Source of the DNA: Opitutus sp. GAS368
GTDB taxonomy: Bacteria > Verrucomicrobiota > Verrucomicrobiia > Opitutales > Opitutaceae
Direction of reading: 5' to 3'
Length of the DNA stretch: 35,543 nt
NCBI GenBank assembly: GCA_945903545.1
Contig: CAMDOO010000032.1
Location: forward strand, 1-35,543
Part shown: piece after piece, positions 4,522-31,119 of the stretch
Layout: each line of letters opens with the position of its first letter
How positions within the stretch are numbered: position 1 is the stretch's first letter
Notes under the pieces: generated by a model
The model's input: the letters and a program-made list of their open reading frames with translations, nothing else
The model's database searches: none
Told to the model about the DNA's origin: nothing
Position numbers and translations under genes: made by a program

Positions 4522-4750
4522 CCGGAGTTTTGAACCGCGGATTTAGCGGATTACACGGATTCGAACCCTCGAATCATCAAGCCGACTTTTTACCGGTGGC
4601 CGCAGAGGAAGGGGTGCATGGTTTCCGATCCTTCTCCAGGTCCTCAGCAATCTCCTGTGCCAAACGGTTCGGTGGCCGGGTTCCCATCCGTGCGATCCGT
4701 GTAACCGAGTGCAGCGACAGGGCTACCAATCCGTGGTTAAAAAACTCCGG
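4522..4750. repeat. Gene-less inverted-repeat element
   Basis: The left edge (CCGGAGTTTTGAACC then GCGGATT, from 4522) pairs with the right edge (AATCCGTGGTTAAAAAACTCC, up to 4750). Inside, GGATTACACGGAT on the left has a counterpart ATCCGTGTAACC on the right. The arms are iterated CGGATT units like those around the GxxExxY gene at 7219. The middle holds no gene that I can support. It ends 4 bases before the stop of the hydrolase gene at 4754. Confidence 0.65.
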
Positions 4751-5550: not shown

Positions 5551-5646
5551 TAGTGACGAGTGACGGGTGACGGGTGACAAGAAGGAACCGGATCGACCCC
5601 TCCCTTGGGCTCAGACTCGTCACATGTCACCCGTCACTCGTCACTA
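5551..5646. repeat. Inverted repeat of iterated GTGAC units
   Basis: The left arm 5551-5578 and right arm 5619-5646 are inverted copies with 26 of 28 bases matching. Each arm is an iteration of GTGAC every 7 bases (GTGACGAGTGACGGGTGAC). It fills the divergent gap between the hydrolase (minus) and the PTPS gene (plus), so it may carry or affect both promoters. Confidence 0.85.
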
Positions 5647-7168: not shown

Positions 7169-7172
7169 AAAC

Positions 7173-7630
7173 ACCGATCCTTCCCGCGAATAACGCGGAT
7201 GAACGCGGATTCGAACCGATGATTTACGAGGAGCTCAGCGGAAAAATCATCGGAGCCGCCATGGCTGTGCTGAACGAGCTTGGGCCCGGTTTGGATGAGA
7301 AACTTTATGAGCGGGCTTTGGTCATCGAGCTGCGAAAGCGCGGGCATACCGTCGGGCAACAGAAGCCATTCGAGGTGCAATACTCCGGGGAGCTGATTGG
7401 AACCCTCATTCCAGACACCATCGTTGACGGGCTGGTGATTGCCGACCCCAAGGTGGTCGAGGCGTTCAGCGAGACGCATGTCCGTCAAATGATCGGCTAC
7501 CTGGCCATCACCAAGCTCAGGCTCGCGCTCTTGCTCAATTTCAAGCACAGCAAATTGCAGTGGAAACGTGTCGTCCGTGAAGTCCCCAACTAATCCGCGT
7601 TCATCCGCGAAATCCGCGGGAAGGTTTGGT
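7173..7630. mobile_element. Inverted-repeat element carrying a GxxExxY gene
   Basis: Left arm 7173-7211 and right arm 7592-7630 are inverted copies with 34 of 39 bases matching (core CGCGGATGAACGCGGATT). The arms bracket a single gene, the GxxExxY ORF at 7219-7593, whose stop codon lies in the right arm. The element sits exactly between folE2 and the SDR gene. The inner part looks less GC-rich than its neighbours. No transposase is present. I did not find a clear target-site duplication. Calling it mobile is an inference from arms, gene content and the second similar element at 29513-30034. Confidence 0.65.
7219..7593 (+). CDS. GxxExxY protein (PDDEXK_3 nuclease-like)
   Basis: A 124-residue protein with the name-giving motif in ELGPGLDEKLYERAL (G-x-x-E-x-x-Y) preceded by the typical IIGAAMAV helix. 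The PD-(D/E)xK-like core is PDTIVDGLVIADPKVVEAF: the first acid is kept, while the usual ELK reads DPK, so a D-xK site is possible but activity is uncertain. It ends with LALLLNFKHSKLQWKRVV, the family C-terminal strand. Known members are small proteins of unknown function assigned to a nuclease-like superfamily and often present in many copies. The ATG at 7219 is eight bases after the left inverted arm. It lies inside the pterin operon on the same strand, so it is probably read through from folE2. Confidence 0.88.
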   Translation: MIYEELSGKIIGAAMAVLNELGPGLDEKLYERALVIELRKRGHTVGQQKPFEVQYSGELIGTLIPDTIVDGLVIADPKVVEAFSETHVRQMIGYLAITKLRLALLLNFKHSKLQWKRVVREVPN

Positions 7631-8332
7631 CCGGCGGTCTTGATCACCGGCGCGTCGCAGGGCATCGGCGCCGAGATCGCCAAGGCCTTTGCCCGCGGGG
7701 TGCCTGGCGTGCGGCTCGCGCTGGTGGCGCGGAACCGGGGTAACCTGACAGCGGTGGCCAAGGTGTGCGAAGCCTGGGGGGCCGAGGTTGCGGTTTTCCC
7801 CGGTGATGTCTCGCGGGAGGCCGCGGTCACGAAGACGGCCAAAGCCGTGGCAAAGCGCTTCGGCCCGGTCGACGTGCTGATCAACAACGCGGGCGCCTTC
7901 GAGATGGCGCCGTTTGCGAAGACCCCGGTGGCGATGTTCGACCGCATGATCGCATCCAATCTGCGCAGCGCGTTCCTCGTCACGCAGGCCTTTTTGCCGG
8001 CGATGCTGCGGCGTCGGCAGGGCGACGTGTTTTTCATGAGCTCGATCGCCGGGCTCGGGGCCTACCCGAATTCCGCGGCCTACTGCGCGGCGAAATTCGG
8101 CGTGACCGGCCTCGCCAAGGTGCTGCGCGCCGAAACGAAGGGCAAAGGGATCCGCGTCTGCTGCGTTTTTCCCGGCGCGACGTGGTCACCCTCGTGGTCC
8201 GGCAGCGGCGTGAAGCCGGAGCGGATCATGCCGGCGGAGGACATCGCCCAAGCCTTCCTCGACATCTGGCGCCTCGGCCGCCGCACCGTGGTGGAGGAGA
8301 TCGTGCTCCGCCCCGCGGCCGGGGATCTGTGA
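7568..8332 (+). CDS. SDR-family oxidoreductase, sepiapterin-reductase-like
   Basis: A short-chain dehydrogenase (254 residues from GTG 7568) with the NADP-binding TGASQGIG, the LINNAGAF block, the catalytic Ser in SSIAGLGA and YCAAK as the YxxxK motif. The C-terminus RRTVVEEIVLRPAAGDL closely resembles what I recall of the Chlorobium sepiapterin reductase end, and PGATWSPSW fits the same group. With FolE2 and PTPS upstream, reduction of 6-pyruvoyl-tetrahydropterin or sepiapterin is plausible; a general ketoacyl/alcohol reductase is the alternative. The only in-frame starts before the core are GTGs at 7568 and 7577, both inside the GxxExxY gene, and residues up to about 20 are encoded by the right arm of the element. 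The original start was probably replaced by the insertion. Confidence 0.88.
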   Translation: MSSVKSPTNPRSSAKSAGRFGPAVLITGASQGIGAEIAKAFARGVPGVRLALVARNRGNLTAVAKVCEAWGAEVAVFPGDVSREAAVTKTAKAVAKRFGPVDVLINNAGAFEMAPFAKTPVAMFDRMIASNLRSAFLVTQAFLPAMLRRRQGDVFFMSSIAGLGAYPNSAAYCAAKFGVTGLAKVLRAETKGKGIRVCCVFPGATWSPSWSGSGVKPERIMPAEDIAQAFLDIWRLGRRTVVEEIVLRPAAGDL

Positions 8333-8340
8333 AGACGAAT

Positions 8341-8472
8341 CCTTTGGCACACAGGGACACGGAGAGCACGGAGCACGGCGAAGGGTAGGGGAATGTGTCC
8401 CCGCATGCCCTGGATTGGGCCAAATTCCCCTGCCGGATCCTCCGTGCTCTCTGTGTCTCTGTGTGCCAAAGG
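8341..8472. repeat. Gene-less inverted-repeat element
   Basis: Left arm 8341-8375 (starts CCTTTGGCACACAGGGACAC) and right arm 8438-8472 are inverted copies with about 32 of 35 bases matching, around about 62 bases without a gene. The arms iterate a GGCACACAG / GGACACGGAG-type unit. It occupies the gap between the SDR and creB; the rest of the gap (8473-8608) holds nothing I recognise besides the creB leader. Confidence 0.8.
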
Positions 8473-8608
8473 TTTTTCGGTGTGCCGGGTCTTCTGCTCG
8501 GCGTGGCGTCGGCCGGGTGAAATCCCGATGAAGGCACGGTGAAATCGGCGTGGGTTCCTGCCGTTGGGCTGGCGGCATCGCTCCGGGCCGCTCAACCCTT
8601 GATCCATC

Positions 8609-10871: not shown

Positions 10872-11933
10872 CTACAAGAGTGAGCCCTGTTCGCCGCTCG
10901 ACGGCTTCAAACCGATCGCCGCGTAGCCTTTGGGCGTGAGCATGCGCCCCTGCGGGGTGCGCTGGAGGTAGCCTTCCTGGATGAGGTAGGGCTCGTGGAC
11001 TTCCTCGAGGGTCTCAGCTTCCTCGCCGACGGCGACGGCGATGGTGGTGAGGCCGACGGGCTTGCCGCCATAGTTCTCGGCCATCACGCGGAGGACGCGC
11101 TTGTCCATTTCGTCGAGACCGGCGGCGTCGATCTCAAGGAGCTCGAGCGCGGCGGCGGCGACGGACTGGGTGATGCGGCCTTGGGCGCGCTGCTGGGCGT
11201 AGTCGCGGCAGAAGTTGATCAGGTTGTTGGCGACGCGCGGCGTGCCGCGGGCGCGGGTGGCGATTTCCTGGGCGCCGCCGGTGTCGAGCTCGACCTGGAG
11301 CAGGCCGCAGCTGCGGCGGACGATGCCCTCGAGGGTCGGGTGATCGTAGTAGTCGAGGCGGGTCTGGAGCGTGAAGCGCGAGCGGAGCGGGGCGGTGAGC
11401 AGGCCGCTGCGGGTCGTGGCGCCGATCAGGGTGAACCGCGGGATCGTGAGGCGCACGCTCCGGGCGTTCGGTCCCTGGTCAATCATGATGTCGAGGCGGA
11501 AGTCCTCCATCGCCGAGTAGAGGTACTCCTCGACGGTCTTCGGGATGCGGTGGATCTCGTCGATGAAGAGGATGTCGCCCTCCTCGAGGTTGGTGAGCAG
11601 GCCCGCGAGGTCGCCGGCCTTCTCGATCACGGGGCCGGAGGTGACGCGCACATTGCGGCCGAGCTCGTGGCCGAGGATGAAGGCGAGGGTGGTTTTGCCG
11701 AGCCCGGGCGGGCCGGAAAGGAGGATGTGGTTGAGGGCCTCGCCGCGCTTCTTCGCGGCGCCGACCATGACCTGCAGGCGTTCGACGGTCTTCAGTTGTC
11801 CCGTGAAGTCCGCGAACGAGAGCGGCCGCAGCGCGGCCTCGGCCGGCGAGACGGGCGCGGCGAGCGCGGAGCTGAGGAAATTAATCCCCGTGGGGGAAGC
11901 GGGGCTCGCGGGCTTTTTGGGGGACTGGCTCAA
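10872..11933 (-). CDS. ruvB: Holliday junction branch-migration ATPase RuvB
   Basis: The motor of the RuvAB complex, which moves Holliday junctions during recombination and repair. The 353-residue protein has the family length and motifs: LRPLSFADFTGQ, Walker A SGPPGLGKTTLA, Walker B ILFIDEIHRIPK, sensor 1 LIGATTRSGLLTAPLRSRF, the arginine region and the winged-helix C-terminus PYLIQEGYLQRTPQGR. An extra 30-residue N-terminal leader (MSQSPKKPASPASP and following) is Ala/Pro-rich. ruvA and ruvC are not in the window. murA lies upstream on the same strand, separated by an inverted repeat. Confidence 0.97.
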   Translation of the reverse strand: MSQSPKKPASPASPTGINFLSSALAAPVSPAEAALRPLSFADFTGQLKTVERLQVMVGAAKKRGEALNHILLSGPPGLGKTTLAFILGHELGRNVRVTSGPVIEKAGDLAGLLTNLEEGDILFIDEIHRIPKTVEEYLYSAMEDFRLDIMIDQGPNARSVRLTIPRFTLIGATTRSGLLTAPLRSRFTLQTRLDYYDHPTLEGIVRRSCGLLQVELDTGGAQEIATRARGTPRVANNLINFCRDYAQQRAQGRITQSVAAAALELLEIDAAGLDEMDKRVLRVMAENYGGKPVGLTTIAVAVGEEAETLEEVHEPYLIQEGYLQRTPQGRMLTPKGYAAIGLKPSSGEQGSLL

Positions 11934-11967
11934 GGGACAGGAAGATATTTAGGACGATCTTGCGGAA

Positions 11968-12052
11968 GGTGGCACGCAGAGAGCGCAGAGGACGCAGGGC
12001 ACGGAAAATACAGGATCGAACTCTGTGCTCTCTGCGGTCTCTGCGTGAAACC
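11968..12052. repeat. Gene-less inverted-repeat element
   Basis: A CACGCAGAGAGCGCAGAGGA-type left arm (from about 11968) pairs with TCTGCGGTCTCTGCGTG on the right (to about 12052), roughly 22 of 27 bases. The unit GCAGAG is iterated in both arms. It fills the ruvB-murA gap and ends ten bases before the murA stop. Confidence 0.75.
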
Positions 12053-12061
12053 GGTTTGGCA

Positions 12062-13351
12062 TCATTTCCATTCCAGGTCGGCGCCCAGGCTCCGCAGGTT
12101 TTCCACGAAGCGGGGGTGGGCGCGGCGGATGGTGTCGGCGTGGCGCACGACGCTGCGGCCGGGGATCGAGGCCGCGACCATGGTGAGGGCGACGGCGGCG
12201 CGGATGATGTAGGGCGAGTCCACCACGGCGGGGCGGAGCGGGCGGTCGCCGAAGACCACGATGCGGTGCGGGTCGCTCACGACGATGTGCGCGCCGAACT
12301 TCGCAAGCTCGGGCATCCAGGAGAAGCCGTTCTCGTAAACCTTGTTCCAGAAATGGATCGTGCCCGTGGCGCGCGTGCTCAGCGCGATCATGAGCGGCAG
12401 CAGGTCGACCGAGAAGTAGGGCCACGGCGCCGCCTCGATCTTGGTGAGTAGGTTGGCGGTGAAGGGCGTGGCGACCGTGAGCTTCTGCTTCGCCTTCACG
12501 ATGGCCGTCGTGCCCTGGTGCGTGACGGTCACGCCGAGCTTGGCGAACGAGCGGGTGATCAGGTCGAAATGCTCGGGCAGGGAATTCTTCACGCGCACCT
12601 CGCCGCCGGTGATGGCGCCGAGCGCGAGGAAGGTGACGACTTCGTGGTAGTCGGTGCTGATGGTGAAGTCAGCCCCATGGAGTTTCTTCACGCCCGTGAT
12701 GTTGAGCATGCTGGTGCCGATGCCCTCGATCTTGGCGCCCATGGCGACCAGCGCGCGGCAGAGATCCTGCACGTGCGGTTCGCTCGCGGCGTTGATCAGC
12801 GTGGAGGTGCCGGTGGCGCCGGCGGCGGCCATGGCGAAATTCTCGGTGACGGTCACCGACATGTAGTCGAGCCAGTGGCGCGCGCCGCGGAAGCCTTTGG
12901 GCAGGGAAATGACGAGCGGGTCGCCCTCGCGGATGGTGGCGCCGAGGGCGTGGAGCACCTCGAGGTGCGGGTCGATCTCGCGCACGCCGAGCGAGCAGCC
13001 CTTGGAGTTCGAGCCGAGCCGGATCTTTTTCAGGCGGCGCAGCAGCGCGGGGTAGAGCAGCACGGTCGAGCGCATGTCCTGCGGCAGCTCGTGGTCTGCC
13101 AGCCGGTCCACGAAGGTGGAGTGGTCGACCTGCATTACGCCGGCGTTGCGGTCCCAGTCGATCCGCGAGCCCTGCGCGCGGAAGAAGGCGACCAGCTTGT
13201 CGAGGTCGGTGATGTCGGGAACGTTGCGGAGCGTCACCGGCTCGTCGGTGAGGAGCGTCGCGCAGAACACGGGCAGGACCGAGTTCTTGTTGCCCGAGGG
13301 CGTGATGGTGCCGGCGAGGGGTTTGCCGCCGTTGACGATGAGGTCAGCCAT
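12062..13351 (-). CDS. murA: UDP-N-acetylglucosamine 1-carboxyvinyltransferase (MurA type)
   Basis: Transfers enolpyruvate from PEP to UDP-GlcNAc, the first committed step of peptidoglycan synthesis. From the ATG at 13351 the protein has 429 residues, the family length. It shows the substrate-binding PSGNKNSVLP (usually SGAKNA), TLRNVPDITDL, the catalytic Cys loop GCSLGVREIDPHLEVLHALGA, TVTENFAMAAAGATGTS, the NAASEPHVQDLCRALVAMGA block and TDYHEVVTFL. The end, RAHPRFVENLRSLGADLE, differs from the usual DRGYERI form, so this is a divergent MurA or a paralogue such as a second MurA. The frame is open far upstream (to 13873) but that part covers a REP element and a terminator. Confidence 0.9.
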   Translation of the reverse strand: MADLIVNGGKPLAGTITPSGNKNSVLPVFCATLLTDEPVTLRNVPDITDLDKLVAFFRAQGSRIDWDRNAGVMQVDHSTFVDRLADHELPQDMRSTVLLYPALLRRLKKIRLGSNSKGCSLGVREIDPHLEVLHALGATIREGDPLVISLPKGFRGARHWLDYMSVTVTENFAMAAAGATGTSTLINAASEPHVQDLCRALVAMGAKIEGIGTSMLNITGVKKLHGADFTISTDYHEVVTFLALGAITGGEVRVKNSLPEHFDLITRSFAKLGVTVTHQGTTAIVKAKQKLTVATPFTANLLTKIEAAPWPYFSVDLLPLMIALSTRATGTIHFWNKVYENGFSWMPELAKFGAHIVVSDPHRIVVFGDRPLRPAVVDSPYIIRAAVALTMVAASIPGRSVVRHADTIRRAHPRFVENLRSLGADLEWK

Positions 13352-15381: not shown

Positions 15382-15451
15382 GGTAGGGCGGACATGTCAT
15401 GTCCGCCGCGATATCTGCCGAGCCCGGCGGACTCACCGAGTCCGCCCTACC
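15382..15451. repeat. REP-like element between convergent genes
   Basis: GGTAGGGCGGAC at the left pairs with GTCCGCCCTACC at the right, and an inner palindrome GGCGGACATG-T-CATGTCCGCC repeats that at 14890-14910. A second small hairpin (GGCGGACTCACCGAGTCCGCC) lies within. It fills nearly the whole gap between the dUTPase and thioesterase stops. Confidence 0.85.
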
Positions 15452-20292: not shown

Positions 20293-20348
20293 GCGGGCGG
20301 CCCCAGCTCGTTTCATCCGTGGACGCTGGGCTGGCGCGATCATTTTCG

Positions 20349-20466
20349 GATTTTTTTGCCACAGGCACAGAGGGCTCAGAGCCCCAGCCTCGTTGTTTTT
20401 TGTTTGGGTTCCGAACCGGAACAGCATCCGACCTCTGTGAGCTCGGTGCCTCTGTGGCAAAAACGG
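20349..20466. repeat. Gene-less inverted-repeat element, copy A
   Basis: The left arm (TTTTTTTGCCACAGGCACAG, from about 20351) pairs with the right arm (CTCGGTGCCTCTGTGGCAAA, to about 20463). The interior (AGCCTCGTTGT, GCATCCG, CTCTGTGAGCTC) and the flank GGTTTGAAATCA are shared with the element at 22979-23121, so these are two copies of one element. It lies between the CDF gene and the small membrane gene. Confidence 0.85.
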
Positions 20467-20523
20467 TTTGAAATCAGCGCGGCCGGGTCGTCGCCCAGCC
20501 CGACCGGCGCCACCGCGACTGTT

Positions 20524-22978: not shown

Positions 22979-23121
22979 GATGTTTTGCCGCAGAGGCACA
23001 GAGTGCACAGAGCCCAAGCCTCGTTGTCTTGGTTTCCGAACCCTGAAATTTCCGGCATTCAGGGTCCGGAGGCCAAAGCATCCGCCCTCTGTGAGCTCTG
23101 CGCCTCTGTGGCAAAAACAGG
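22979..23121. repeat. Gene-less inverted-repeat element, copy B
   Basis: The left arm TTTTGCCGCAGAGGCACAGA (22983-) pairs with GCGCCTCTGTGGCAAAAAC on the right (to 23118). It shares interior and right flank (AGCCTCGTTGT, GTTTGAAATCA) with the element at 20349-20466, with about 25 extra bases in the middle. The rest of 22874-23237 holds another small repeat (GCGGACTCGGTGAGTCC at 22908-22924) and no gene. Confidence 0.85.
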
Positions 23122-24610: not shown

Positions 24611-24633
24611 TGCGGCGGGATCCTTCGATCCGT

Positions 24634-24840
24634 CTTTTGACCACGGACCGTGTCCTGCGAAGCTCGAAGAGCGAAGCAGGATGGCACGGCTTAAACGGAT
24701 TCGAACTCGAACCCCGAACCGGTTGGCACAGGAGGTCGCTGAGGACAGGGAGGTTTGATTCCGGAAATTCTCGGTGTGCTCCGTGCCCTCCTGTAAATCT
24801 GCCGTGGATCGGATCCTTATCCCTTGAATCCGCGGTTACT
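24634..24840. repeat. Nested inverted-repeat elements
   Basis: An outer pair (TTTTGACCACGGA near 24634 and TCCGCGGTTAC near 24826) of the CGGATT family encloses a second pair of the ACAGGAGG family: GGCACAGGAGGTCGCTGAGG at 24724 and GTGCCCTCCTGTAAAT near 24783-24798. A smaller GAAGCTC/GAGCGAAG palindrome sits at 24652-24682. CGGATTCGAAC occurs here and also at 4557 and 7207. No gene is seen in 24611-24905. Confidence 0.65.
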
Positions 24841-24905
24841 CCCGTTTTTGCCGCCCGGTTGGGATATTGCGCTGGGTGAAGGCCCGCGTTTGCGTTCAGG
24901 CCCGC

Positions 24906-26759: not shown

Positions 26760-26786
26760 AGGACGGCGCCGAACATTCCGGATTGG

Positions 26787-26932
26787 TTTCACGCAGAGAA
26801 GCCCAGCCTGCGGCTGGCCAAGGCAAAGGGCGCAGGGCTCGATCCAATCCAAACGCCATGGGGCCGGAACGCTGATCGATTGGGGGAGTGGGTTCTGGAA
26901 ATCAGCATTGATCAGCGCAGATCAGCGTTCCC
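26787..26932. repeat. Degenerate repeat region
   Basis: TTTCACGCAGAGAAGCCCAG begins a CACGCAGAG-type arm that appears interrupted by CAGCCTGCGGCTGG before it continues GGGCGCAGGG. Further right GGAACGCTGATC (26867-26878) and GATCAGCGTTCC (26921-26932) are perfect 12-base inverted copies, with extra GATCAGCG repeats between. No gene is seen in 26760-27076. Confidence 0.55.
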
Positions 26933-27076
26933 TCTCTCCGGCCGCGCCGGGATTGACCCGGCCCGGAAATCTTGCGGAAGTGCCGGAACCCTTTCGGCCC
27001 TGAACCGCCGACTTACCCCTCCCGCTTCCCGGTCCGGCTCCGTGCCCCGGGAGAAAACCCCGACCCCCGCCTGTTT

Positions 27077-29506
27077 ATGAACACCCCTGATCATTCGTCC
27101 CTGCGCACCGCCCTGTTTGCCCTCCTCGCCTTTTCCGTGGGCACCGTCCCGGCCTTCGCCCAGGCCCCGCAGGCCGGTGCCGGCCGTGGGGCGGCCCCCG
27201 CGGCGCCGGGAACGGTGCTTTCCCCCGCCCAGACTGCGGCCGTGGGCGCGATGAACCAGGCGCTCACACCGCTGGCGAACGAGGTGGCCGCGGCGCGCAC
27301 CGCCTTGGCCGCCGCGAGTCTCTCGATTCCCCGCGACGATGCCGCGATCCGCGCGAAGGCCGAGGCGGTGTCGACCGCCGATCTCGCGCTGGCCGCGGCC
27401 CGGGCGGATCGGTTCATGCGGATCCAGGGCTCGGCCAATCGCCTCTCGCCCGAGCAGGTCGCCCCGATCGTCACCCAGGCCGCCCAACCCGGCGGCCGCG
27501 GCGGCCGCGGCTCCGCGGTCAATCCCGGCGGCACCGGTCTGGCGTCGGCGCAGGCAGAAACGGCGAAGCTGGTCACGGCCCCCGGGGTCGCGGCGACCCT
27601 CGTCGCGGCCGAGCCTATGATCGTCAATCCGACCAATCTCGACGTCGATGCCCGCGGCCGCGTCTGGGTCAACGAGGGGGCCAATTACCGCACGCTCGCC
27701 TACACCCGCGAGGAGGGCGACCGCATTCTGATCCTCGAGGACACCAACGGCGATGGCGCCACGGAAAAGTCCACCGTCTTCTACCGGGACCCGTCGGTGA
27801 ACGCCGCGCTCGGCGTCATGGCCCTTGAGGGCAACAAGGCGCTCGTGGCCTCCTCGCCCTACATCTTCGTGCTGACGGATACCAACAACGACGGCGTCGC
27901 GGACAAGCGCGAGGTCATGTTCGAGTCGCTCGGCCAGGCCAACCACGACCACAGCCTGCACGCCTTCGTCTTTGGGCCGGACGGCAAGCTCTACTTCAAC
28001 TTCGGCAACTCGATCACCGAGCTGAAGCGCCCGGTCGCGGGCCTGCTCACCGTGCCGCTGCACGGGGAGATCCCCGCCCATGAGTCGGTCACCGTCATCG
28101 ACCGGGACGGCAAGCCGGTAAAGCACGGTGACACCTACAAGGGCGGCATGGTGTTCCGCTCCAACCTCGATGGCAGCAACGTGGAGACCCTCGCCCACAA
28201 TTTCCGCAACAACTTCGAGGTCGCCGTCGATTCCTTCGGCGGCATGTGGCAGTCGGACAACGACGACGACGGTAATACCTCGGTGCGCATCACCTACGTG
28301 ATGGCGGGTGGAAATTACGGATATCTGGACGAGCTGACCGGGGCCGCCTGGCGCACGCCTTGGATGGCGGCGGGTTCGCCGACGGATCCCGTCGTTCGCG
28401 CGTCGTTCCACTGGCACCAGACAGATCCGGGGGTCGTGCCGAACCTGCTCATCACCGGCGCCGGTTCCCCGACCGGCATCGCGGTCTACGAGGGCTCGCT
28501 GCTCCCCGCCGAATTCCGCAATCAGGTATTCCACACGGATGCGCGCCCGAGCGTGACGCGCGCCTATCCGGTCACCAAGGCCGGGGCCGGCTACACTGCG
28601 ACCGCGGCCCCCATCCTGTCACCCGCACAGACCGACAACTGGTACCGCCCGTCCGATGTGGCGACTGGTCCCGACGGGGCCCTCTATGTGGCGGACTGGA
28701 ATGACTCCACCGTGGGTGGCCATGCCATGGCCGACCAGATCCTGCCCACGCTGACGGGCCGCGTTTACCGCCTGGCGCCCCCCGGCAACCGTCCCGCCGT
28801 GCCGGCGCTGAATCTCAACAACGCGGCGGGAGCCGTGGCCGCGTTGCAGTCGCCGAACATGAACACGCGCTATCTCGCCTGGACCAAGCTGCACTCCATG
28901 CAGGCCGGCGCCGAGGCCGAGCTCGTGAAGCTCTGGCAGAATCGCGCCAACGACCGCATGCGCGCCAGGGCGCTCTTCCTCCTCTCCCAGATCAAGGGCA
29001 GCGAGAAGAAGTACCTGGATCAGGCCGCGACCGACACCAGCGAGGACATCCGGATCGTGGCCCTCCGCGCGGCCCATGCCGCCGGCGTGGATGTCATTCC
29101 CTACGTGAAGCAACTCGTCCGCGATCCCTCCGCGCAGGTCCGCCGCGAGGCGGCCCTCGCGCTGCGGCACAACCGGTCGCCGGAAGTCCCCGCGCTCTGG
29201 GCGGCGCTTGCCCAGCAGCACGACGGCAAGGACCGCTGGTACCTCGAGGCCCTCGGCATCGGCGCCGACCAGCGCTGGGACGAGTGCCTGACCGCCTGGC
29301 AGGCGGGCGGCCGGATCGACCTCACCAGCGCCGCGGCGCACGACATCGTCTGGCGCTCGCGAGGCAGCAAGACGCCGGAGCTTGTCGTGGCCATGGTCAA
29401 ACAGCCGGGTACGACTCCGGCCGAGCGCACCCGGTTGCTCCGCAGCCTCGATTTCGTGAAAGGTCCGGAAAAGGATGCGGCGCTGCTTCAGCTGCTGACT
29501 CCCTGA
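27077..29506 (+). CDS. PVC-type exported dehydrogenase (beta-propeller), heme domain absent
   Basis: An 809-residue exported protein with a signal peptide (about 1-29, ending AFAQA). Residues about 50-137 form an Ala-rich helical domain, followed by a Gly/Arg linker (PGGRGGRG). The main domain (about 165-600) is a glucose/sorbosone-dehydrogenase-like propeller: NPTNLDVDARGRVWVNE, DTNGDGATEKSTVF, FGPDGKLYFNFGNS, ATGPDGALYVADWND. HEAT-like helical repeats follow (about 615-800). In PVC bacteria such proteins often carry a C-terminal CxxCH cytochrome domain; here that is in the next gene. The helical domain is shared with the C-terminus of the ThuA-like protein downstream. The ATG at 27077 sits directly before the signal peptide. 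Confidence 0.88.
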   Translation: MNTPDHSSLRTALFALLAFSVGTVPAFAQAPQAGAGRGAAPAAPGTVLSPAQTAAVGAMNQALTPLANEVAAARTALAAASLSIPRDDAAIRAKAEAVSTADLALAAARADRFMRIQGSANRLSPEQVAPIVTQAAQPGGRGGRGSAVNPGGTGLASAQAETAKLVTAPGVAATLVAAEPMIVNPTNLDVDARGRVWVNEGANYRTLAYTREEGDRILILEDTNGDGATEKSTVFYRDPSVNAALGVMALEGNKALVASSPYIFVLTDTNNDGVADKREVMFESLGQANHDHSLHAFVFGPDGKLYFNFGNSITELKRPVAGLLTVPLHGEIPAHESVTVIDRDGKPVKHGDTYKGGMVFRSNLDGSNVETLAHNFRNNFEVAVDSFGGMWQSDNDDDGNTSVRITYVMAGGNYGYLDELTGAAWRTPWMAAGSPTDPVVRASFHWHQTDPGVVPNLLITGAGSPTGIAVYEGSLLPAEFRNQVFHTDARPSVTRAYPVTKAGAGYTATAAPILSPAQTDNWYRPSDVATGPDGALYVADWNDSTVGGHAMADQILPTLTGRVYRLAPPGNRPAVPALNLNNAAGAVAALQSPNMNTRYLAWTKLHSMQAGAEAELVKLWQNRANDRMRARALFLLSQIKGSEKKYLDQAATDTSEDIRIVALRAAHAAGVDVIPYVKQLVRDPSAQVRREAALALRHNRSPEVPALWAALAQQHDGKDRWYLEALGIGADQRWDECLTAWQAGGRIDLTSAAAHDIVWRSRGSKTPELVVAMVKQPGTTPAERTRLLRSLDFVKGPEKDAALLQLLTP

Positions 29507-29512
29507 GCCGGA

Positions 29513-30034
29513 TTTTTACAGGAGGGCGCGGAGAGCGCGGAGGATATGTCGCTGTGAGTAACTCATGCTGGGCTTGGTCGATGGATGCGCTTGGATGACC
29601 AAATGCATCCGTTGTACCTGAAGGCTGACGCTCTGACCCAAACCGTCATCGGGGCCGCGATCGAGGTCCATAAGGACAAAGGACCCGGGCTGGTTGAATC
29701 AATCTACGAGTGGTGTCTGTTGCGTGAATTGGAACTGCAGAAACTAAAGACGGAGAACCAACGGCTCGTGCAAATTCACGACAAGGGATTCATCCGGGAT
29801 GAACCGCTTCGTTTCGACGTGCTTGTAGAGGGCTGCGTCTTGGCCGAGGCGAAATCAGTCGAAGCGATCCTTCCCATCCACAAGGCCCAGCTCTTGAGTT
29901 ACATGAAACTCCTGGATGTGCCCATCGGTCTCCTGATCAACTTCAATTCCACCAAGCTGACCGACGGCGTTTCCCGTTTGGTTCTGCGAGGTGCGAGCTC
30001 ATGACTCCTCGCTCTCCGCGCCCTCCTGTAAAAA
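29513..30034. mobile_element. Inverted-repeat element carrying a GxxExxY gene
   Basis: Left arm 29513-29542 and right arm 30005-30034 (TTTTTACAGGAGGGCGCGGA and following) are inverted copies with 29 of 30 bases matching. They bracket one gene, a GxxExxY ORF. The left arm starts seven bases after the dehydrogenase stop; CCGGA/CCAGT just outside is less similar. The gene is visibly poorer in GC than the neighbours. No transposase is present. This is the second such element in the window with different arms (GGAGGGCGCGGAGAG unit instead of CGCGGATGAA). Confidence 0.7.
29585..30004 (+). CDS. GxxExxY protein (PDDEXK_3 nuclease-like)
   Basis: A 139-residue protein (ATG 29585; ATG 29603 gives 133 residues and also fits). 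It has IGAAIEVHKDKGPGLVESIYEWCL, with the GxxExxY motif as GLVESIY, and a PD-(D/E)xK-like core LRFDVLVEGCVLAEAKSVEAI in which D and E-x-K are both kept, so it may be catalytically active. The C-terminus VPIGLLINFNSTKLTDG is typical. Function of the family is not established. Its TGA overlaps the ATG of the cytochrome gene (ATGA at 30001-30004). It lies on the same strand as the dehydrogenase and cytochrome genes and is probably in their transcript. Confidence 0.9.
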   Translation: MRLDDQMHPLYLKADALTQTVIGAAIEVHKDKGPGLVESIYEWCLLRELELQKLKTENQRLVQIHDKGFIRDEPLRFDVLVEGCVLAEAKSVEAILPIHKAQLLSYMKLLDVPIGLLINFNSTKLTDGVSRLVLRGASS

Positions 30035-31119
30035 CTGGTTTGTTGGTTTGCCTGATCTTGGCTGCCTTGTGGGGAGGCTTGGTGTCGACATTCGCCGCCG
30101 ACGCCCCGCCGATCGATGTGCTGCTCCGGCTCAAGGGCACCAATCTCGACTCCAGCCCGGCGGTGAAGGCGGCGCTGGATCGCGCGTTGCAGGCGTATCG
30201 GGGCCAGCCGCCCTTTCTTGAGTTGGTGCGGGCTTTCAATCTCACCGACCGTGCGGATGGCCTGATTGCGCTCGCCGTGGCGCACCCGGATGACTCGACC
30301 GGCGCGGAGGCGCTGCAGCGGGTGATCGAGGATGGCGGGTTGGACGCCATCAAGCAGGCCATGGCCGGTTCCGGCGGCTCTGCGCTGGTGCGGGCCCTTG
30401 GCAATGTCGCCGATGCGTCCGTGCCGGAGCTGCTTCAGCCGGTGATGCTCGACGCGAAGGCCCCGGAGGCGCTCCGGCTCGACGCGGTTCGGGCGCTTGC
30501 GCACAGCGAGGCGGGAGCGCAGGCGCTGCTCGAGCTGGCCCGGGCCGGCGGATTTCCCGAGACACTAAAGCCCGCGGCGGCAACGGCGCTCGCGGCCTCA
30601 CCCTGGCCGGCGGTCAAGGACGAGGCGGCGCGACTTCTACCCCCGACGGCGTCGGCGGGCCAGTCGATCCCGTCGCTCGCGGAGGCCCTGGCCCTGCGGG
30701 GCGATGTGGCCCGCGGCGAAAAGGTTTTCTTCGGCGCGGCGGCCTGCGCCAGCTGCCACCAGGTGAACGGGCGCGGGGTGGACTTTGGTCCCGGGCTTTC
30801 CGAGATCGGTGACAAGTTCGCCGCGGAGGCGCTCTATGCCGCGATCGTCGAGCCCAACGCCGGCATCAGTTTCGGCTACGAGCCTTGGCAGATCACGCTG
30901 CGCAATGGCGCTGCCGTCGGGTTCATCGCGAGCGAGACCGACGACGAGCTCACGGTGAAAGCACCGGGCAATATCATCACGCGCTACCGCAAGTCCGATG
31001 TCACGGCCCGCGACCGGATCCCCGGCTCGCTCATGCCGCCGGGGCTGCTCGCCGCGACCAATGCGCAGGAGGTCGCCGACCTGCTGGTGTACTTGGGGTC
31101 GCTGAAGAAGGGGCGCTGA
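30001..31119 (+). CDS. PVC-type cytochrome c, CxxCH protein
   Basis: A 372-residue exported protein. A hydrophobic signal segment (GLLVCLILAALWGGLVSTFAA, about 13-33) is followed by HEAT-like helical repeats (about 40-215) and a cytochrome c domain with CASCH at 249-253 (heme attachment), GPGLSEIGDKF and a probable Met ligand in SLMPPGLL. This is the heme-binding domain that is fused to the dehydrogenase in many PVC bacteria, so it should take electrons from the dehydrogenase upstream. The first 12 residues (MTPRSPRPPVKT) are encoded by the right arm of the GxxExxY element; TTG codons at 30040 or 30043 would give a shorter, more usual signal peptide start. Confidence 0.88.
   Translation: MTPRSPRPPVKTGLLVCLILAALWGGLVSTFAADAPPIDVLLRLKGTNLDSSPAVKAALDRALQAYRGQPPFLELVRAFNLTDRADGLIALAVAHPDDSTGAEALQRVIEDGGLDAIKQAMAGSGGSALVRALGNVADASVPELLQPVMLDAKAPEALRLDAVRALAHSEAGAQALLELARAGGFPETLKPAAATALAASPWPAVKDEAARLLPPTASAGQSIPSLAEALALRGDVARGEKVFFGAAACASCHQVNGRGVDFGPGLSEIGDKFAAEALYAAIVEPNAGISFGYEPWQITLRNGAAVGFIASETDDELTVKAPGNIITRYRKSDVTARDRIPGSLMPPGLLAATNAQEVADLLVYLGSLKKGR

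Follow-up and report, generated by a model that had tools for sequence, protein, structure and literature searches.

A GxxExxY-family gene between near-perfect inverted repeats in Opitutus sp. GAS368: a candidate minimal mobile element and its gene-less relatives

The two GxxExxY loci, their protein and their arms

The stretch of DNA analyzed here (the window; 35,543 nucleotides of Opitutus sp. GAS368, whose genome is referred to below as G000) holds an element of about 520 bp, e2, which consists of two 30-nt arms that are 97% (29/30) complementary, 29513-29542 on the forward and 30005-30034 on the reverse strand, with 462 nt between them and a single enclosed ORF, a GxxExxY (PDDEXK_3) gene of 139 aa at 29585-30004 (+). 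A 29/30 inverted match anywhere in 1 kb would be expected about 4e-11 times by our own arithmetic, which assumes uniform bases. The left arm opens with a T-run, followed by the units 29518-29524 (ACAGGAG), 29527-29533 and 29536-29542 (both CGCGGAG); the right arm is its inverse copy and ends in an A-run, with one unit reading CGAGGAG instead of CGCGGAG. The left neighbor, a gene for a PVC-type heme-binding CxxCH protein (26972-29506, +), ends 6 bases before the left arm, and downstream lies an ORF for a TIGR02603 heme-c protein (30001-31119, +), the ATG of which overlaps the GxxExxY stop codon and the frame of which passes through the right arm, so that its N-terminus may be supplied by the element. 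The original prediction of 29/30 inverted repeats around one GxxExxY gene is thereby borne out, as is its likening of the locus to a second one, e1 (7173-7630, +), where CGCGGAT arms (7173-7211 and 7592-7630; 39 nt, 87% complementary) surround a GxxExxY gene at 7219-7593 within a folE2-SDR junction. The SDR ORF downstream of e1 also runs through the right arm; both downstream ORFs (7568-8332 and 30001-31119) begin within the elements and translate a right arm, and their starts may be misplaced or element-made.

Both proteins belong to the GxxExxY family, above the curated cut-offs: PF13366 is matched by e2 with E=9e-34 and 116.8 bits and by e1 with 119.4 bits (cut-off 22), TIGR04256 by e2 with E=2.1e-36 and 124.8 bits and by e1 with 123.1 bits (cut-off 35). 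The acid...D...(E/D)xK center that defines the PD-(D/E)XK superfamily is present (E38, D78, E88 and K90 in e2; D in place of E88 in e1), and its residues are kept across the family, E38, D78 and K90 in 106/107 sequences each and E/D88 in 107/107. An AF2 model of the e2 protein (pLDDT 92.3, pTM 0.85) finds its best PDB structural match, at a modest score (E=4.8e-4, TM 0.42 by query length), in SSO0001 (4ic1), which we take to be a Cas4, followed by lambda exonuclease (E=0.01), with tRNA-splicing endonucleases lower in the list, which places the predicted fold, on modest scores, in the Cas4/lambda-exonuclease branch of PD-(D/E)XK; a sequence search of the PDB gave no clearly related chain (best E=0.71). 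As the center is conserved and the modeled fold resembles that of Cas4 and lambda exonuclease, the gene is probably kept as an active nuclease of the DNA-exonuclease/Cas4 type. An origin in defense or phage was considered and rejected, the e2 protein having a weak Cas4 match in PADLOC (E=0.0055), the e1 protein none, and neither a PHROG match.

The arms of e1 and e2 had been described as unrelated, which they are not: they follow one grammar in two spellings, CGCGGAT in e1 and CGCGGAG in units 2 and 3 of e2, with a common spacing, and the only distinctive part is the outermost e2 unit (ACAGGAGG). Arm units are 7 nt long, of the general form CRC-N-R-A-K, and spaced by 9-10 nt, as is also seen in the arm autocorrelation, which peaks at 9 (0.387) and 10 (0.358); exactly three units were called in 58 of 109 elements, fewer in 43 and more in 8. 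The two arms of an element agree in their units and differ in their spacers. With units called on either arm (109 elements), the mismatch is 4.6-19.5% per unit position versus 118/320 in spacers, and, the count being redone with one-arm calls because the first had called units on either arm, units called on the left arm only are mismatched on the right in 145/1673 positions (8.7%) versus 104/285 (36.5%) in spacers, and units called on the right arm only give 8.0% versus 36.7%. Arms that match unit by unit while their spacers differ look like sets of protein-binding sites rather than like one continuous stem.

It might nevertheless be argued that the arms work as a transcript hairpin (in stability, processing or RNase III-like cleavage), that the GxxExxY protein processes or regulates that RNA and that any spread is incidental, since the arms could pair across the gene, the elements sit directly after stop codons among co-directional genes, and RNase III cuts the stem formed by S23 intervening sequences, as the available text of PMC4990558 has it. 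We deem this explanation distinctly improbable, given that the spacers differ freely while the units match, that the nearest folds are Cas4 and lambda exonuclease (even though tRNA-splicing endonucleases do appear further down), that no Rfam family is matched in the window, and that, among ordered mismatches, sense-strand changes compatible with G-U pairing are fewer than incompatible ones (129 versus 186). Selection on an RNA stem was rejected on this last count.

Gene-arm association and co-divergence across genomes

PF13366 matches were found in 39 of the 57 genomes searched (that of the window and its relatives), and the matches listed, of 165 in the 57 genomes, comprise 150 unique domains from those 39. 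Among the 134 of these that are full-length and have flanks, flanking inverted repeats exceed 95% of mismatched-pair controls (the left flank of one gene against the right flank of another) in 109 and 99% in 77, the remaining 25 being without arms above the 95% level. Outside the host family, 18 of 24 loci pass the 95% and 8 the 99% level (24 of 30 loci, own-family and unusable ones being left out). A further 80 named loci were chosen as the best among 571 e2-like places in GTDB genomes and hence are not a random sample; the best-scoring named relatives of e2 come mostly from Opitutaceae/Opitutales assemblies. Of the 80, 78 were usable, and 64 of them exceed 95%, and 57 exceed 99%, of a weaker random-stretch control (each left flank being compared with a stretch taken at random from another locus). 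The armed ones fall in nine of the twelve phyla sampled (Verrucomicrobiota, Planctomycetota, Kiritimatiellota, Lentisphaerota, Pseudomonadota, Chloroflexota, Bacteroidota, Myxococcota and Thermodesulfobacteriota), with no arms above the 95% level of that control at the loci from Acidobacteriota (2), Methanobacteriota (1) and Elusimicrobiota (1). The association of gene and arms is general, which supports the original view of it as more than chance, and the possibility that most GxxExxY genes lack arms does not agree with these counts. One locus (L188, in G007) has two GxxExxY domains in one open frame and no detectable arms.

The relation of arm type to protein subfamily is a graded one. The more identical two proteins are, the more similar are their arms (Mantel r=0.268, reached by 0/999 permutations) in 110 of the 119 elements, those with a score of at least 28 and without L188, arm typing itself having used 119 of 125 unique domains; and, in the 87 of 109 elements with at least four units called each, identical units between genomes make up 72.7% at protein identities of at least 75% and 0.9% below 35%. 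Random assortment of the two is not what is seen. The one-to-one pairing of subfamilies and arm families that had been suggested as a check is borne out as graded tracking but not shown as a strict match, many genomes having arm types for which no cognate gene was found. As physical linkage alone would also produce a correlation between arms and protein, stronger support for recognition comes from the conservation of units over spacers and from the dialect of the gene-less arms described below.

Candidate specificity residues did not hold up: residue-to-unit covariation does not survive phylogenetic control. The pairing of T18 with G at position 4 of the unit seemed strong at first (31:1 in the discovery set; 36:3 for T versus 9:16 for S in the hold-out, Fisher 2e-6) and was lost in independent-pair tests, in which other columns do equally well, while N30 went with a final T in 34/34 discovery cases, occurred once in the hold-out and was far from significant in independent-pair tests, so both residues are at most leads. 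The hold-out comprised 65 loci, others having been removed because arms (15) or a called unit (15) were lacking, because they belonged to the discovery set (10), because they were partial (9) or because their flanks were short (2).

Movement, junction turnover and gene-less hairpins

Genes and arms travel together, as far as genome comparison can tell. Of the 90 close pairs formed between genomes, 45 have neither flanking gene in common (46/91 when an unreadable flank is treated as no match) and 45 at least one; the arms of the former, which are not independent and come in many cases from the e2 clade, have a median similarity score of 34 versus 14 for distant proteins, 31/45 lying above the 95% point of the background. 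As e2 itself has no flanking gene in common with any of the eight relatives that have arms and are at least 70% identical to it (8/8, at 71-79%), its movement is supported, which is in line with what had been supposed of it, and e1 was inherited in place in its folE2-SDR junction.

Besides the two gene-bearing elements, the window contains gene-less hairpins of an e2 type at 24728-24794 (arms 24728-24752 and 24770-24794, 76% complementary), of a CACGGAG/CACAGAG type at 8338-8475, directly 3' of the SDR stop codon, of a CGCAGAG type at 11968-12052, of a CACAGAG type at 20353-20463 and 22983-23116, and of a CGGAT type at 4547-4699, as well as a single CGCTGAT-type arm at 26911-26927 (-), the partner of which was not found. 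Several of the stretches bearing them are missing in congeners: 24611-24899, the 289 nt around the e2-type hairpin, is 9 nt in G001, 20332-20523 is absent there, and 26762-26942, the 181 nt around the single arm, is 8 nt in G001. Three junctions hold a different element in each of three genomes (the window and the congeners G001 and G002), with types in the congeners, as in the folE2 relatives below, assigned by eye: 7169-7642 has e1, a heptamer hairpin and an e2-type hairpin; 11881-12063 has CGCAGAG, GTGGAAAGCAGGAAA and CTGGAACTCAGGAA; and 29507-29999 has e2 in the window, whereas G001 has a GAAG-type hairpin without a gene there and G002 an S23 element. An empty dehydrogenase-cytochrome junction, which the original prediction had proposed to look for in relatives, was not found in these two congeners, both being filled. 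Elsewhere, the folE2 junction is without an element in G023, G008 and G015, has gene-less hairpins in G019, G017 and G022 and holds a frameshifted gene in G011. Neither a target-site duplication nor an excision product was resolved at the congener junctions, which are too diverged to read. A REP-like hairpin of GTAG-type look (GGTAGGGCGGAC...) lies at 15382-15451 of the window, in a stretch that is 7 nt in G001.

The thought that these are old intergenic hairpin-gene units, inherited vertically, with arms homogenized by gene conversion and little present movement, draws on the 45 of 90 close pairs that have at least one flank in common, e1 with its folE2-SDR junction included; set against the other 45, e2 among them, and against what the congeners show, namely clear-cut absences and, at one and the same junction, arms of other types, it seems to us very improbable.

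Gene-less arms go with the gene on the scale of whole genomes. Matches to three arm patterns, counts that include the genes' own arms, have a median of 20 in the 39 GxxExxY genomes versus 0-3 in the 18 without (p=9e-8) and, within the host family, of 21.5 (32 genomes) versus 1.0 (5 genomes), although 7/39 GxxExxY genomes have three matches or fewer; since reversed-pattern controls, near zero for two patterns, still yield 0-4 matches per genome for the ACAGGAGG pattern, single matches mean little. For each of the three types, solo arms are found in larger numbers in genomes that have the cognate gene type (p=8e-6, 6e-5 and 4e-5; within the family p=9e-4, 1.2e-3 and 1.0e-3), in a test which counted L238 and L319 twice and whose gene-side pattern was looser than the genome-side one, so that too many own arms were subtracted in G007 and G012, a bias against the result. 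Exceptions exist: at least four arms and no cognate gene found is the state of three genomes for the e2 type (G001, G019 and G031, of which G019 holds an e2-clade gene with arms scoring below control), of 15 for GGAT (G043 with as many as 95 arms) and of 6 for TRAT, and a test at the four-arm threshold is not significant for GGAT within the family (10/12 versus 13/25, p=0.08).

Often, with such exceptions, the gene-less hairpins appear to have not only the arm type of the resident gene but also its spelling. The e2-type pattern has 25 exact matches in G000, two being e2's own arms, and five paired hairpins, 68-150 nt across, were found in the 28 loci read for them; in G022, 17 stretches chosen for having arms gave 14 paired hairpins of 87-217 nt, whose termini (TTTTTT-AACC...GGTT-AAAAAA) and arms are those of the gene-bearing copy L189. 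In e2-type arms, the spacer that separates units 1 and 2 varies by genome: C stands at the second spacer position in 20/23 solo arms of G000, as in e2, in 1/21 of G002, as in its resident A-type L113 (p=2e-8), and in 1/22 of G024 (22 of the 30 matches listed), as in its resident L195. G056, where the base after the spacer is G in 33/34, was not used as a resident match, because its gene L171 is part of a tandem array in which the arms are in the opposite order. Our interpretation of the dialect is that, once the lineages had separated, the solo arms either spread from the resident element or were kept in agreement with it.

The reverse dependence has also to be considered, namely that the arms are REP/MITE-like hairpins moved by some other enzyme (a RAYT or a host factor) and that GxxExxY is captured cargo: gene-less arms outnumber genes (104 GGAT matches versus 3 GxxExxY genes in G022), some genomes are arm-rich with no cognate gene found, and GTAG-type REP-like hairpins are present in the window as well. 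Presence and type of the gene, however, predict presence and type of the arms, one arm grammar surrounds the gene in nine phyla, and the nuclease center is strictly constrained, which, taken together, leaves this account unlikely in our view, if the most serious of the competitors.

Two peculiarities of gene-less copies may be added. In G056 (C82:193-996, C112:72-598 and C6:58214-58636), e2-type arms stand in tandem with alternating orientation every ~90-110 nt, and three 174-nt GGAT-type copies lie beside a GxxExxY gene; in the G022 hairpins (L371-L390), ~11/38 arms (by eye) have, on one side, a GAGAGGCAG-like sequence ahead of the terminal T-run, possibly as a target or companion unit.

Proposed mechanism and known systems

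REPINs and the Rpn/PDDEXK_2 recombination-promoting nucleases are two known systems beside which such an element can be placed. The latter are PD-(D/E)XK proteins that have been annotated as transposases; they belong to different Pfam families and are not known to us to have arms of the GxxExxY kind. Like a classical transposon with its MITEs, e2 combines terminal inverted repeats with gene-less miniature copies.

Among the closest plans is that of the REPtrons/TIRtrons, in which a RAYT goes with REP sequences (available text of PMC3733652). Judging by that text, both are single-gene elements with cognate repeats at their borders and many dispersed gene-less intergenic repeats, the families of which vary by genome, and e2, with repeats flanking the gene and dispersed gene-less copies, shows this arrangement. 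The RAYT, on the other hand, is an HUH tyrosine transposase, whereas the e2 protein is a PD-(D/E)XK nuclease with PDDEXK_3/GxxExxY matches only; and the e2 arms are multi-unit arrays without the GTAG tag, those of e2 and G022 opening with a T-run and then ACAGG or AACC.

The reading we prefer, and which we think somewhat more probable than otherwise, is that e2 is a REPtron-like mobile element whose PD-(D/E)XK nuclease recognizes its own arms and mobilizes both itself and gene-less hairpins. On this proposal, e2 would be one copy of a widespread minimal mobile element, a small nuclease gene between terminal inverted arms, in which the 7-nt units, typically three at a 9-10 nt spacing, would serve as sites for the element's own nuclease; the nuclease, together with host replication or repair, would move the element that encodes it and also, acting in trans, REPIN/MITE-like hairpins with two arms of the same type and no gene, and, as arms and protein diverge together, each lineage would have its own arm code. 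Recognition of the arms by the nuclease is suggested by unit-wise conservation, co-divergence and dialect, its activity by the conserved center, and its part in causing movement by the correlation with gene presence. Against this reading, we know of no PD-(D/E)XK enzyme shown to transpose DNA alone. The further-reaching version, in which a ~130-aa PD-(D/E)XK nuclease alone mobilizes elements of a new class, present in at least nine phyla and equipped with a protein-arm code that can evolve, and in which it is the source of much of the CACAGAG, CGCGGAT and ACAGGAGG repeats dispersed through Verrucomicrobiota and their relatives, is put forward tentatively, at rather less than even confidence.

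Were it true, a large class of dispersed intergenic repeats would be explained, a function would be suggested for a nuclease family for which none was found, and the enzymes capable of moving DNA would gain a further type. The question posed by REPINs and RAYTs, namely which agent moves short hairpins and whether hosts make use of them, would become testable in an independent system, and, since protein and arm type diverge together, nature would have provided a data set of nuclease-site pairs for reading how small nucleases choose their sequences. Judged by the sequences compared, mobile DNA of this kind seems to be widespread, to scatter gene-less copies and to have gone undescribed: in the open-access literature, no description of arms or of a mobile element was found for GxxExxY, TIGR04256 or PF13366, six exact arm spellings had no occurrence, and nothing linking PDDEXK to MITEs or inverted repeats stood among the matches listed; since only open-access texts were searched, this is no proof of absence. 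One published mention of GxxExxY is a remark on a reverse transcriptase neighbor.

Intergenic arrays of short units in several phyla are also described for the TAACTGA heptamers of Beggiatoaceae (available text of PMC4679880), for which translational regulation was proposed; those, however, are direct repeats of heptamers and stand nearer to S23-type arms than to GxxExxY arms. The S23 intervening sequences are, in the available text of PMC4990558, called selfish and described with terminal inverted repeats, transposition or mobility being among the quoted hypotheses, with heptamers before the Coxiella S23 ORF, and resemble e2 in being ~0.4-kb elements with one small gene. The S23 protein (PF05635) is, unlike that of e2 and e1, which match PF13366 only, a four-helix one, and the Coxiella element lies inside the 23S rRNA, whereas e2 lies between two protein genes in a window free of Rfam matches. 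The arms differ too, their autocorrelation being 0.62 at 7 for S23 versus 0.39 at 9 for GxxExxY; in the genomes examined, the S23 genes have period-7 arms, which exceed the 95% control in 29/36. PF05635 genes are about as widespread as GxxExxY ones (38 versus 39 of 57 genomes, with 13 matches in G000) and look like a second element class of the same plan, and the window itself has, at 5551-5646, a gene-less S23-type hairpin of heptamers (GTGACGG-like), in the place of which G001 has a different hairpin.
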